DNA of 10,395 bases from contig DNGI01000482.1 in NCBI GenBank assembly GCA_003486645.1, positions 2,271-12,665 on the forward strand. The letters are read 5' to 3'. This DNA is from Cyanobacteria bacterium UBA11370. Its GTDB lineage: Bacteria; Cyanobacteriota; Cyanobacteriia; Cyanobacteriales; Coleofasciculaceae. Numbering within the stretch: the stretch's first letter is position 1; the number at the start of each line of letters is the position of its first letter. Shown here piece by piece: positions 4,981-10,372 of this stretch. The notes beneath the pieces were generated by a model, which saw only the letters and a program-made list of their open reading frames with translations, was not told the origin of the DNA and made no database searches. Made by a program: the position numbers and the translations under genes.

Positions 4981-5098
4981 AAAAGAACCTTGATATCAAA
5001 GAGCTTGTTTGTTGTTTAATATAGTATGGCTCATTCTCATCAAGACTGAAAATCAACCCGATCGCAAAAATTATTTTCTCTCCTACTCCCCCTTTAGA

Positions 5099-5215
5099 TT
5101 AGGCATCTTGCCACCGTTGGGAATTAGTGAGTTGGCGCAGTCGGTAAAAATCAATAGCGTCAGCTAATAGGGTTTTGTCCTCTGATTGGGGGCGGTATCC
5201 GGGTTTGAGGATCAT
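5099..5215 (-). pseudogene. N-terminal fragment of a cyanobacterial hypothetical protein (38 codons)
   Basis: An ATG at 5215 opens a 38-codon frame beginning MILKPGYRPQSEDKTLLADA and ending LTNSQRWQDA before TAA at 5099-5101. The pattern of P-x-S-x-D, then acidic residues, then F-x-LRQLT-x-x-x-R resembles the start of small cyanobacterial hypothetical proteins that I recall as longer, about 70-100 residues. The rest of such a protein is not seen in any frame downstream, so I read this as a truncated remnant. It could instead be a real short peptide or chance. Confidence 0.35.
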
Positions 5216-5221
5216 GAGAGA

Positions 5222-5259
5222 GGGAGAGGGAGAGGGTGAGGGGGGGAGGGGGTGAGGGG
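5222..5259 (+). repeat. G-run array with G-quadruplex potential
   Basis: Six runs of three to seven G (5222-5224, 5228-5230, 5234-5236, 5240-5246, 5248-5252, 5256-5259) are separated by spacers of one to three bases such as AGA and TGA. This fits a canonical intramolecular G-quadruplex on the plus strand. It lies upstream of the structured region and next to the start of the gene fragment at 5215. Confidence 0.7.
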
Positions 5260-5310
5260 AGTCAGATTTTTACCTTATATTGATATAGTTTAAACTAGTG
5301 GGAAGAGAAG

Positions 5311-5697
5311 GTTATCGTTGTAAGCAACCCCGGTCTAAAGACACGGAGCTTCAGCTATGAAATTAGCGAAAGCTGTGCTTACCCGCCTAAGTCCCCTGCG
5401 GACTACGTTATCGGCAAGAGTTAAAGAACCTACCAGTGGATGCTCCCGCTAGTCCCCTGCTCTAGAACCAAAAAGTTAAACAGTTTTAAGGTCACTGAAA
5501 CAGTGCTTTTTGGATAGTTACCGACCGATAACATTGGCAAAGCTAACTTTACCCGCAAGGGAAAATTGGAGACAACCATATCTCCATGGAGGGGCAACCA
5601 TACCCCTCCACCCCGAAAGGGGTAGGCGGTTAAAACCGCTATTGTGCGTTCCTCTCGGCTCTAAAGAGACAGAGTTTCCCGCAACGGAGGATATCTG
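5311..5697 (+). ncRNA. Candidate structured RNA / long leader of the small secreted protein gene
   Basis: This coding-free stretch is dense in helices on the plus strand. GTAAGCA (5320-5326) pairs with TGCTTAC (5376-5382) and encloses two hairpins (5330-5346 and 5352-5375), giving a three-way junction. AGTCC/GGACT closes 5390-5404. GTTATCGG (5407-5414) pairs with CCGATAAC (5525-5532) as a long-range 8-bp helix. Inside it CCAAAAAG (5468-5475) pairs with CTTTTTGG (5506-5513), around CACTG-AAA-CAGTG. CCC-GCAA-GGG (5552-5561) and CCCC-GAAA-GGGG (5611-5622) are GNRA-capped hairpins. GGAGGGG/CCCCTCC (5588-5609), GCGGTT/AACCGC (5626-5639) and a CTCT/AGAG hairpin (5652-5674) follow. Direct repeats of AGTCCCCTGC lie at 5390 and 5451. 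It could be a cis-regulatory leader or a mobile-element RNA such as the HEARO/omega-RNA class; the family is not established. Boundaries are approximate. Confidence 0.6.
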
Positions 5698-6003
5698 ATG
5701 AAAACTGCATTTATTATTCTCACCGCTGTTCTTGCTACAATTAGCTTAACCCGGCAACTTTCTGCTCAAGCACGAACCCCAGCTCAAGAGTTTTTTGAGC
5801 AAGGATGGCGAGAATTAGAGCAACAAATTCAGATTCTTCAGGGAGAACAGAGGAACTCAGAGGAGAACTCTCAACAGCAAGAATCCGAACCTTTGTTGCA
5901 AGTTAATCCTTCTGCGTCTCCCGAAGCCAATCCAACGCCAAATGAGGTAGAAAGTCCATCCCAGAGACCTGATGATCAAAGGAACAACATCCGTGAAAAT
6001 TAG
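5698..6003 (+). CDS. Small secreted protein of unknown function
   Basis: The product is 101 residues. MKTAFIILTAVLATISL is a signal-peptide core with likely cleavage near SA23 or AQA25. After it comes an amphipathic helical stretch rich in Glu and Gln (about 28-52, EFFEQGWRELEQQIQIL), then a low-complexity Ser/Pro/Asn/Glu tail to the end. The start is well supported: GGAGG at 5686-5690 is seven bases upstream of the ATG. It is the only convincing plus-strand gene here, sits directly behind the structured leader, and is convergent with cysE. I do not recognise a family. The short helix plus disordered tail suggests a periplasmic or envelope peptide, not an enzyme (inference). Confidence 0.7.
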   Translation: MKTAFIILTAVLATISLTRQLSAQARTPAQEFFEQGWRELEQQIQILQGEQRNSEENSQQQESEPLLQVNPSASPEANPTPNEVESPSQRPDDQRNNIREN

Positions 6004-6010
6004 TTGATAC

Positions 6011-6033
6011 TCCGCCGCTTAAAACACGGCGGA
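6011..6033. terminator. GC-rich hairpin between convergent genes, also similar to an IS605-type end
   Basis: TCCGCCG (6011-6017) and CGGCGGA (6027-6033) form a perfect 7-bp stem with a nine-base loop, between the stop of the small secreted protein gene and the stop of cysE. Its position suits a bidirectional terminator, but neither side has a real T-run. Read on the minus strand the surroundings run GAATCCGCCG...CGGCGGAGTATCAA. This resembles the hairpin ends of IS200/IS605 tnpB elements, with TTGAT at 6004-6008 on the plus strand like the target site of that family. Confidence 0.45.
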
Positions 6034-6050
6034 TTCTAAAATGCTACCTG

Positions 6051-6809
6051 TTAAATCCCTGAGCCATCCAAAAACTGTTGAATGGTCTTGTCACGGAGGC
6101 TACAACTCTGAGTTGCAGAAGCACAAGCCTCTAGAAAATCAATCTGCGACTCGCTGAGGGAGGGTTTTGAAGATTGGTTATTCATCAATGCTTCAACTTG
6201 TTGTTCGAGTGTCTCAATTCGATCCAGTAAAGCGCGAATCACGGTGGCTTCAGAATCAGGAAGACTGCCATGTTCTAGGGGATTAACCCGAACTCCAGAA
6301 CGATATACAATTCGACCCGGTACACCAACTACAGTACAATCAGAAGGAACATCGCGCAATACGACTGAGCCTGCCCCAATCCGGACATTATTGCCGATTT
6401 GGATATTGCCCAGAACTTTAGCACCACCCCCCACTACTACATTTTCTCCGAGGGTGGGATGGCGTTTACCGCATTCTTTCCCCGTACCACCGAGGGTGAC
6501 ACCTTGGTAAATGAGACAGTAATCACCAACAATAGCAGTTTCTCCAATCACCACACCCATGCCGTGGTCAATGAAGACACCCTTACCAATGGTGGCACCG
6601 GGGTGAATTTCAATGCCTGTCAAAAATCGGGAAAACTGAGAAATTAGGCGGGGGATGAAGGGAATCCCGATGTCATGCAACCAATGACAGAAGCGGTGGA
6701 ACAGCAGTGCTTGTAAACCGGGGTAGCAGAACAATACCTCCAGCCAGTTGCGGGCGGCTGGATCACGATCAAAGATGATGCGGAAGTCAGCAAGGAAGGT
6801 AGATAACAC
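6051..6809 (-). CDS. cysE: Serine O-acetyltransferase
   Basis: CysE transfers acetyl from acetyl-CoA to L-serine, giving O-acetylserine, the committed step of cysteine synthesis in the cytoplasm. The 252-residue sequence is the short CysE form: an N-terminal helical region (1-62), the left-handed beta-helix with hexapeptide repeats (about 66-165), and an extended tail. Signature segments are TGIEIHPGATIG (64-75), the catalytic DHGMGVVIGET (81-91, His82), QGVTLGGTGK (102-111), KRHPTLGEN (115-123, His117) and VGVPGRIV (161-168). Residues about 190-210 look coiled-coil and the tail beyond 212 is longer than in minimal bacterial forms. The start is GTG at 6809, chosen because the resulting MLSTFLADFR matches the family N-terminus; no Shine-Dalgarno site is visible. 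The secreted-protein gene at 6868 ends 58 bases upstream, so the two could share a transcript. Confidence 0.96.
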   Translation of the reverse strand: MLSTFLADFRIIFDRDPAARNWLEVLFCYPGLQALLFHRFCHWLHDIGIPFIPRLISQFSRFLTGIEIHPGATIGKGVFIDHGMGVVIGETAIVGDYCLIYQGVTLGGTGKECGKRHPTLGENVVVGGGAKVLGNIQIGNNVRIGAGSVVLRDVPSDCTVVGVPGRIVYRSGVRVNPLEHGSLPDSEATVIRALLDRIETLEQQVEALMNNQSSKPSLSESQIDFLEACASATQSCSLRDKTIQQFLDGSGI

Positions 6810-7834: not shown

Positions 7835-10243
7835 TCAAGTTAAACGTGTACTAATAAACGAGAGATCGACATTGCCAAAATTGGTTACTAAAGCAATGTT
7901 TAAGTTTTCCATCAATTCAATCAGCCATAGGATATCATCAATAGATTGAGATTCGTAGTGGTTAAATAAGATAGAGAAACGCTTTTCTAAATCGGGTTTG
8001 ACTTGATGAGAGAGAAGGGCAATTTTGAGTAACAATCCTGTTGTTTGCACAGTGCCGTTATTATCTAGTAGATTGGTAAATTCTAGGAGTTCGCTTGTGT
8101 CCGGACTTTTGACCAAGAAATTGAATAGTTGGCTACAGGTTCGCACCAATAAGAAGTCGTTAACTTTCTGAGTATCAAATTCAGTTAAGGTGGTTCTCAG
8201 ATGCTTGGATAAACGCTGACTGAAACGTTTATTAAACTCATGTCCACCATCTTGAGCTTTGATAGAGGTCATCAGGTATTCATATAAATCCTTTTTAAAG
8301 GCTTGATAAGATTGCGTCTGAACGGTGTGAGTTAGAAAGCCTTTAGCTAACTCTCGATAGGTATAGGAACCTTCAACTTTGCCAGCAAATTGCTTGAGTG
8401 CTAAAAATAGTTTAGCATCGGCTAATCGAGTAGGATTCGGTACGGGGGGAATTTGCATTTCCTTTTGTCGCATCAAATACGTTGCGTACTGCGATAAATT
8501 GACTCCAAATTGATGTTGCCGTTCGGCTTGAAGTTGGCGGATAGTTTCTTGTTCCTCAATTGAACAGCCTTCGGGTAATAAACAATGGAGGTATAAGAAG
8601 GGATATTGTCCAATTAATTCCGATAAGATTGTCCGATTAGGTTGGGGTAATTTGACGACTTGGACTAATCGTTGTAGACTGCGATATTGCTGACTTTTAG
8701 TAAATTTTTGGAGGAGTTCTTGCAAGCGTGAATTGGCATAATTGTGAATTATAGGACTTTCAAAAAGGGCAATTAACTCTGCGATCGCGGCTTCTTGTTT
8801 GGGAGGTAAGCGCCAGTGGTTAATTAAAATGTGGCAGCATCGATAGAGAACAGGGATAAAGTCTTGATCGGCGTGTTTTGCAACAGTCAGTCTGTAAACG
8901 GCGGTTGAGATCCGGATTTCGGGGTAGCCTGTCCCTTCAATAAATAGCTTGCGGCAGCGTTCAATTAACTGCGTAGGTGACTCTTTTTCAACACATTGAA
9001 GTAGGTGTTTGTAGAGGATTTCTGGTTCTGGTTCTGCTGGATCAATCGTTGCTAATGAGGGAAGTGCGTCAAGTTGTTGTCTGACCCAACGGCGATCAAA
9101 TACAGATTCATAAATGCGGTTATAAACTTTTAAGATACCTCCCCGTTTAACGACTAATCCTGAGAGTCGCAATTCCATTTGTTCTGGACTGTTATTAGCG
9201 GCGACTTGACCCCAGCGTAGAATTTGCTGATAAAGGCTGAGAAGATGGCGGGTACTCTGTCCTCTTCTGAGAATGCGATCGCGGATGGTTCTGAGATGTT
9301 CGGGTTCGTCGGTTGCTTCCCAATTGTTAATTAAATTCTGACGCACGAGTTGTTCTACCCAGTCAGAAATTTGAGATTTTGAATTCCCTCCCTTTGGGAT
9401 TAACTTACTGATAATTTTTGGAGAAAAATGCTCTCCTTTTCCTTTATTACTATAACCATCGGCTTGCTTTAAAATAACTTTACAGAGTTTTTGAGTAAGA
9501 AAAGGTTGGCCGCCTGTCCATTCTAATATTTCCTGGATTACTGCTTGAGAATCGCTGACTTTTCCTTCTAATCCTTCAGCTAAGGGTTGTGCTTCTGCTA
9601 ATTCAAAACCACACAACTCAATCCCCTGACCAATGGTAAACGGTATGCCATTGGTATCTCGAATTAAATCTGAAGGTGTTGCAACTCCCAGCAAGGTAAA
9701 GGTCAAACGCTTATATTTAGGTTGATCAGCACGTTGGTTATAGCAAGCTTGAATTGCGGCTAAGAAATCATCTTTGAAACTTAAGCGGAGAATACTATCA
9801 ATTTCATCTAAAAAAATGACTAAATTTTGAGGAATTAACTCTAACAATACCTCGCCAATAAATTCACTCCAACGCTTAACTGGAGAGAGAATTTCGTGAT
9901 CGCGCCACCAGGTTACAATATCTATATGGTCTAATAAATTGAGGCTATTTGCCAAGGTGTAGGCTATTCCGGCATACCACTGATCTGGGGTAATATCCTG
10001 ACAACCAATCGCACTTAAATCGACTTCAGCACAGGCAATTCCTTCAAATTGCAAGCGTTGCATTGTTCGTACCCGCAGACTCGATTTCCCCATTTGTCGG
10101 GAGTTAAGAACATAGCATAATTCTCCAGCTTTGAGAGCATTATAAAGCTCAGAGTCAGCCTGTCGTACCACGTAGCTTGGCGCATCAATGGGTAGACAGC
10201 CACCGACTTGATAGTCATACACTGAGTTTTGAGTTAGGGTCAT
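7835..10243 (-). CDS. AAA-like ATPase fused to a conserved cyanobacterial C-terminal domain
   Basis: The product is 802 residues from the ATG at 10243. An in-frame ATG at 10258 is possible, but 10243 has AAGG at 10252-10255, eight bases upstream, and gives the usual family beginning. Residues about 8-390 match the AAA-like (AAA_35 type) NTPase module common in cyanobacteria: Walker [10 protein letters not shown] with Lys53, Walker B VIFLDEID at 142-149 (Asp146, Glu147), then [13 protein letters not shown] (242-254) and a winged-helix-like end ([17 protein letters not shown], 371-387). In relatives this module is often followed by WD40 or other sensor/effector domains. Here residues about 407-802 are helical and contain [31 protein letters not shown] (621-640), [17 protein letters not shown] and [13 protein letters not shown]. 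These resemble a stand-alone conserved cyanobacterial hypothetical protein. The likely role is signalling or regulation; the specific function is unknown. Confidence 0.88.
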
Positions 10244-10372
10244 GGTATGCACCTTCATTCGGGCAGAAATAATAAAAATAACCTGAAAATAGCAGATTGA
10301 AAATAGGAGTTATTCGATTGAACGCTGACTGCTGGTAACTGATACTAAGTTGCAGTCAAAGATAGTGGATAG

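Follow-up and report, generated by a model that had tools for sequence, protein, structure and literature searches.

In the window, the 10,395-nucleotide stretch of Cyanobacteria bacterium UBA11370 DNA analyzed here, a short element carrying a HEARO/omega-RNA directly abuts the 5′ side of a host gene's start codon, and its relatives are found next to gene starts much more frequently than chance would predict. Our best explanation, which we hold with considerable confidence, is a 378-base non-autonomous HEARO element of the IS200/IS605 family that lacks a nuclease and would have been mobilized in trans to the ATGA of a host start, with its GGAGG probably used for translation and its omega-RNA probably usable in trans. 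As a nuclease-less HEARO, the element belongs to a familiar class, and the interest lies in the start-codon pattern.

We began from an initial annotation that had described dense RNA structure upstream of a small secreted protein, had offered either a large cis-regulatory RNA or a HEARO/omega-RNA mobile element without its nuclease gene as the source, and had placed the unit at 5311–6003. The density of structure exceeds chance: 5320–5697 folds to −131.8 kcal/mol, compared to a mean of −100.35 kcal/mol (sd 5.61) for 100 dinucleotide shuffles, none of which folded as well (z = −5.61). Inspection of the sequence and the fold confirmed the closing stem, the GGAGG and two hairpins with GNRA loops, CCCGCAAGGG and CCCCGAAAGGGG. 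HEARO (RF02033) was the one Rfam match in the window (134.8 bits, cut-off 83), and this match spans model positions 1–211, that is, the whole model, above the curated cut-off. A scan of 5200–6100 for other RNA classes, admitting matches up to E = 1, likewise returned HEARO alone. Compensatory changes, anticipated among homologous copies in the same annotation, were found in an alignment of 24 HEARO copies: 23 of the 33 predicted consensus pairs show a double change with the pair kept in at least one sequence, the copies having been chosen across types from 106 fetched loci and compared without a phylogenetic null. The closing stem contributes six pairs to the 24-copy consensus, and these are preserved in 143 of 144 cells. 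The segment 5320–5552 is, thus, a HEARO/omega-RNA. Positions of this and the remaining features are collected in Table 1.

Table 1 Features of the element, its flank and the host gene (window coordinates).
Feature	Position	Strand	Basis
Presumed guide: adjoining host DNA on the element's 5′ side, taken to form the omega-RNA 5′ end	5300–5319	+	OMEGA layout
HEARO/omega-RNA core, also the element's left end	5320–5552	+	RF02033, 134.8 bits
Closing stem (5320–5326/5376–5382)	5320–5382	+	Fold and 24-copy consensus
Left-end hairpin CCGGTCTAAAGACACGG, near-copy of relatives' right-end hairpin; presumed transposase recognition hairpin	5330–5346	+	
Hairpin run in place of IscB gene	5552–5619	+	Sequence and fold
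IS200/IS605-type right end: subterminal hairpin (5652–5674), GGAGG (5686–5690), 7-nt spacer	5622–5697	+	
Putative target-adjacent motif ATGA and host start codon	5698–5701	+	Junction comparison, relatives' alignment
Host gene, 101 aa, signal-peptide-like N-terminus (by eye)	5698–6003	+	No Pfam/NCBIfam match

Comparison of copies set the boundaries of the element. The structured unit of the initial annotation stood but was trimmed to 5320–5697, since 5698–6003 belongs to the host gene. Judged from its sequence, the 378-base element is composed of the omega-RNA, extra hairpins and an IS200/IS605-type right end and encodes no nuclease. Matches to the RRXRR family were limited in this genome to contigs C199, C229, C97 and C49 and absent from C37, the contig of the window, which bears out the suggestion of a HEARO element devoid of its nuclease gene. 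The 101-residue protein, which had been thought to occupy the usual place of the nuclease, lies outside the element, past its right end. Among eight HEARO matches in the same genome at E ≤ 0.001, six exceeded the cut-off and four adjoin RRXRR genes. A point of reference was found on C229, where the omega-RNA is 88% identical to that of the window over about 230 bases and the adjoining gene is an uninterrupted 426-aa IscB (NF040563 at 462 bits, HNH domain) whose start lies 22 bases past the HEARO match and whose end falls a few bases short of the right end. In autonomous IscB/IsrB OMEGA elements, the RNA is followed directly on its 3′ side by the nuclease gene; in the window element, hairpins take the position that the IscB gene has at C229. 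These hairpins fall in a segment, 5541–5622, that is 98% identical to a stretch of C542 in the same genome.

Parts of 5620–5702 recur in at least eight other places of the genome, with 81–90% identity over 42–82 bases among the BLAST matches listed. This repeat block is present behind the IscB gene at C229 and, at 89% over 80 bases, beside a broken Y1_Tnp gene and a TnpB gene at C437; the block constitutes the right end. The element, therefore, has its right end in common with a Y1-transposase locus, as is characteristic of non-autonomous IS200/IS605 members, and, on this sequence comparison, a single end type appears to be common to TnpB and IscB/HEARO elements. The C437 locus (L047, 462–2351) comprises the TnpB gene, the Y1 transposase, split over two frames, and the right end with its 89% identity to that of the window. 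A further transposase, on C379, is a fragment scoring under the cut-off, and the two full-length Y1 transposases of the genome (C469 and C300) had no right-end match among the matches listed. Substrates of IS200/IS605 transposases are expected to carry like hairpins at both ends. Bases ~11–33 of the element match the right end of three of the seven short relatives compared (82–96% identity), from which we infer that both element ends bear such hairpins. The omega-RNA stem-loop corresponding to the left-end hairpin, SL1, is described in PMC9581776 as dispensable for nicking and as possibly serving mobility.

To the left of the element, the boundary is marked by a loss of conservation: across 58 mapped copies of types A, B and C (defined below), no position in the 30 bases 5′ of the element exceeded 0.6 bits. 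In OMEGA systems, the guide is host DNA 5′ of the element and forms the 5′ end of the omega-RNA. A search of the genome with 15 bases of the presumed guide followed by NTGR gave no second match with fewer than three mismatches; the 19 matches at up to three mismatches, compared to 14 for a reversed control, comprised the own locus with one mismatch and others that all had three. No sigma-70-like promoter was found in 5000–6100, against 1.0 expected in shuffles. Just upstream of the element, at 5215–5275, lies a G-rich GAGAGGGAGAGGG-type tract. Because its pieces match at least 20 other places in the genome, among the matches listed, we regard it as a separate dispersed repeat.

The protein encoded downstream has no family in Pfam or NCBIfam. 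Matches to it occur in 11 of 57 genomes, counting its own, and the eight best relatives in other genomes are 36–58% identical to it. The three closest (in G011, G009 and G010) align from residue 1, that is, from the same methionine, and a search of nine loci around the relatives gave no match to the element sequence. Both observations make ATG at 5698 most simply the gene's own start, located seven bases after GGAGG. By the same alignments, the 101-aa protein is best read as the product of a host gene rather than as cargo of the element. Attempts to locate an empty site for this insertion used the neighboring genes and the left flank, which had no convincing match within 1.5 kb of the relatives' loci. 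Further genes in the window encode, on the minus strand, a 738-aa protein with a TPS secretion domain (73–2289) and an 807-aa protein with an AAA-like (AAA_35) domain (7835–10258). Proteins of both kinds were also seen near elements elsewhere, with a TPS protein following the element at locus L225 and the AAA_35 family represented downstream of element L186 in another genome.

Empty sites were obtained for relatives. For a 1,666-base type B element in G015 (L192), the flanks were found joined and gapless in three genomes of the same genus, with 95–97% identity over 600 bases and ATG directly after the junction, so that the element lies exactly between flank and start codon. For this type B relative, insertion 5′ of a short target without duplication is, thus, directly visible in all three genomes. 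Similarly, the joined flank of L198 matches L161 without gaps over 181 bases across the junction. A third candidate, the joined flank of L172, was 85% identical to L224 with 22 gaps and was left unused, and the search for an empty site of L194 found the gene in its own genome alone among four.

To place the window insertion among its relatives, we assembled a sample of copies. HEARO matches numbered at least 235 in 17 of 20 genomes of the family (in G015, 70 of 95 candidates were scored). From these, 106 loci were fetched, namely 100 from other genomes, taken from the top of the listing, and six of the eight in the own genome. A right end could be assigned in 65; the 41 loci without one were dropped and two shared insertions removed, leaving 63 insertions from 11 genomes (14 of type A, 32 of type B, 12 of type C and five of type E). 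Elements of 356–400 bases, without room for a nuclease, account for 14 of the 63, plus one cut by a contig end. The HEARO match began with a sequence other than the usual GTCA, GTAA or GTTA in 11 of the 106 loci, of which two, L202 and L042, are among the 63: the left end of L202 was placed about 50 bases too far in, and in L042 the contig end cuts the element, which has no host left flank.

Type A, the end type of the window element, and type B, with a different right end, both have ATGA at the junction and contain GGAGG in 9 of 14 and 23 of 32 copies, respectively; where GGAGG is present, the spacer is 7 nt in 29 of the 32. Type C has no GGAGG (0/12) and ATGG at the junction, with L041, L142 and L147 among the copies in which ATGG stands in place of ATGA. 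Type E also lacks GGAGG (0/5), and four of its five copies have GTGA. From these sequences, a change of end sequence seems to go along with a change of target motif. ATGA was present at all 46 type A and B junctions; this share is not independent evidence, because ATG was part of the ends used to train the right-end models and the caller accepted only junctions with [AG]TG[AG]. Independent evidence is provided instead by the share of junctions that open a gene.

We called a junction a likely gene start if its ATG opened at least 60 codons with no in-frame extension in the joined flanks. The first count was restricted to copies with at least 100 bases of left flank, and other sites in the same host DNA served as controls. 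Types A and B had a likely gene start at the junction ATG in 32 of 45 cases, compared to 85 of 1,238 control ATGA sites. This result changed little on removal of the misplaced L202 (31/44) or inclusion of L042 (33/46). For type C, the count was 5 of 12 against 69 of 1,340 control ATGG sites and, for type E, 0 of 4 against 40 of 912 control GTGA sites. A gene-based count, from which six copies with less than 300 bases of left flank were omitted, assigned the 42 remaining type A and B insertions to gene starts (27, L202 among them), intergenic DNA (11) or gene interiors (4), while the 1,177 control ATGA sites were distributed as 52, 293 and 832, respectively (start versus intergenic, odds ratio 13.8, p = 1.1e-12). 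Type C insertions (n = 11; two start, four intergenic and five inside) did not differ from control (start versus intergenic, p = 0.19), and all four type E insertions were intergenic.

A Pfam family was detected over its curated cut-off in 25 of the 33 proteins scanned downstream of type A and B elements. Proteins complete from near the N-terminus include ribosomal L19, ribosomal L9, an acyl-carrier-type protein, glutaredoxin and RmlD. The elements L210, L040 and L224, located directly before complete ribosomal L19, L9 and acyl-carrier-type genes, are copies without GGAGG.

A second set (L081–L105), of right ends in other cyanobacteria, was retrieved by a search pattern ending ahead of GGAGG and ATG. 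Of its 25 copies, one lay at a contig edge and one was without ATGA, leaving 23, which may include shared insertions. Gene starts were counted in 14 of these 23, compared to 250 of 1,354 controls, under the weaker criterion of 60 open codons downstream and with controls from the flanks of the first set. A HEARO-like match was present in 14 of the 25 loci, in one over just 29 bases, and some second-set copies may, therefore, be other elements with the same ends. As a weaker test, this set points the same way as the first, to insertions at gene starts. Whether ATGA-targeting cyanobacterial HEARO elements in general prefer the start codons of intact genes, including ribosomal ones, and become their leaders while leaving the proteins intact, we judge to be evenly balanced. 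A literature search of titles and abstract openings, with the original HEARO/IscB papers outside its scope, found no report of HEARO/IscB insertion at start codons. We do not claim the pattern as unpublished, and it might surprise a specialist.

Three other readings of the window element were weighed against these data. In the first, it is a dead, MITE-like remnant, at present without any function of its own, and its start-codon position and GGAGG are accidents of landing. The missing nuclease, the broken state of the transposases found beside its right end and the independence of GGAGG from start-codon position all agree with such a relic. However, the position across copies is far from accidental, the HEARO core is intact by score and the genome holds an uninterrupted IscB gene with a related omega-RNA; we consider this reading rather doubtful.

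According to the second reading, GGAGG would be kept because it renders insertions before starts harmless, with copies accumulating there as a result. Its conservation in two otherwise different right-end types, A and B, agrees with this, as does the lower share of gene starts in the GGAGG-free types C (2/11) and E (0/4) compared to A and B (27/42, p = 0.0008), a comparison that is confounded because types C and E also differ in target motif (ATGG and mostly GTGA). Within types A and B, however, gene starts were as frequent with GGAGG (22/31) as without it (10/14, Fisher p = 1), and the second set showed the opposite trend (0/3 with and 14/20 without). GGAGG as the cause of the start-codon preference, thus, held between subfamilies and failed within A and B and in the second set. 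Because the share of starts is the same with and without GGAGG, and because none is present in the copies that precede the L19, L9 and acyl-carrier-type genes, this reading was demoted and is now unlikely. The cause could instead be preferred entry at gene starts that are weakly structured, single-stranded or R-looped, or selection for expression supplied by the element. Lastly, retention of the element as a co-opted cis-regulatory RNA, whose omega-RNA or leader now regulates the secreted-protein gene, would suit the high score of the omega-RNA, the GGAGG 7 nt before ATG and the open frame downstream, but is highly improbable given that the element has no match in the nine loci around the gene's relatives and that HEARO copies precede many unrelated genes, as a mobile element would, and the same two findings speak against the large cis-regulatory RNA initially considered as its origin.

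We return, therefore, to the favored reading of a non-autonomous element mobilized in trans. A Y1 transposase encoded elsewhere would have moved the element to a position just 5′ of the ATGA at a host start, and the insertion would have displaced the gene's own leader. Translation of the host gene would then proceed from GGAGG-7nt-ATG, a composite site to which the element supplies GGAGG and spacer and the host supplies ATGA. The omega-RNA, equipped with a guide from the left flank, may serve in trans as an RNA for the IscB encoded in this genome. After departure of the element, this IscB would cut the empty site, consisting of the guide followed by ATGA, and repair would restore the element, which could explain its retention.

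If the start-codon pattern holds, natural mobile guide RNAs insert before genes, ribosomal ones included, without breaking the encoded proteins, and a guide-RNA element would be rewriting host-gene 5′ ends genome-wide. Testable questions would follow, such as whether omega-RNA and host mRNA form one transcript, by what means expression of the genes is maintained and why the element is attracted to these sites. The window also serves as a caution for annotators: densely folded RNA immediately before a gene need not be a riboswitch and can instead be a mobile element.

Among known systems, the IscB/IsrB OMEGA systems of IS200/IS605, with which HEARO RNA (RF02033) is associated, are closest: the window element has the same RNA family and, likewise, a left end that coincides with the first base of this RNA. 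It differs from them in having extra hairpins instead of a nuclease and in abutting a host start codon. MITE-like non-autonomous derivatives of IS200/IS605 elements are short, keep both ends and have no transposase. The window element is likewise short, with both ends and without a transposase, and differs from such derivatives in carrying a full guide RNA. Stand-alone omega-RNA copies in IscB genomes were reportedly described by Altae-Tran in 2021; the window element similarly lacks a nuclease of its own and has one elsewhere in the genome. ATGA or GTGA is said to have been recognized as a HEARO integration site by Weinberg in 2009. The ATGA at the element's right end fits the NTGA target motif described for DtIsrB in PMC9581776, where TTGA is nevertheless said to be preferred at 60 °C.
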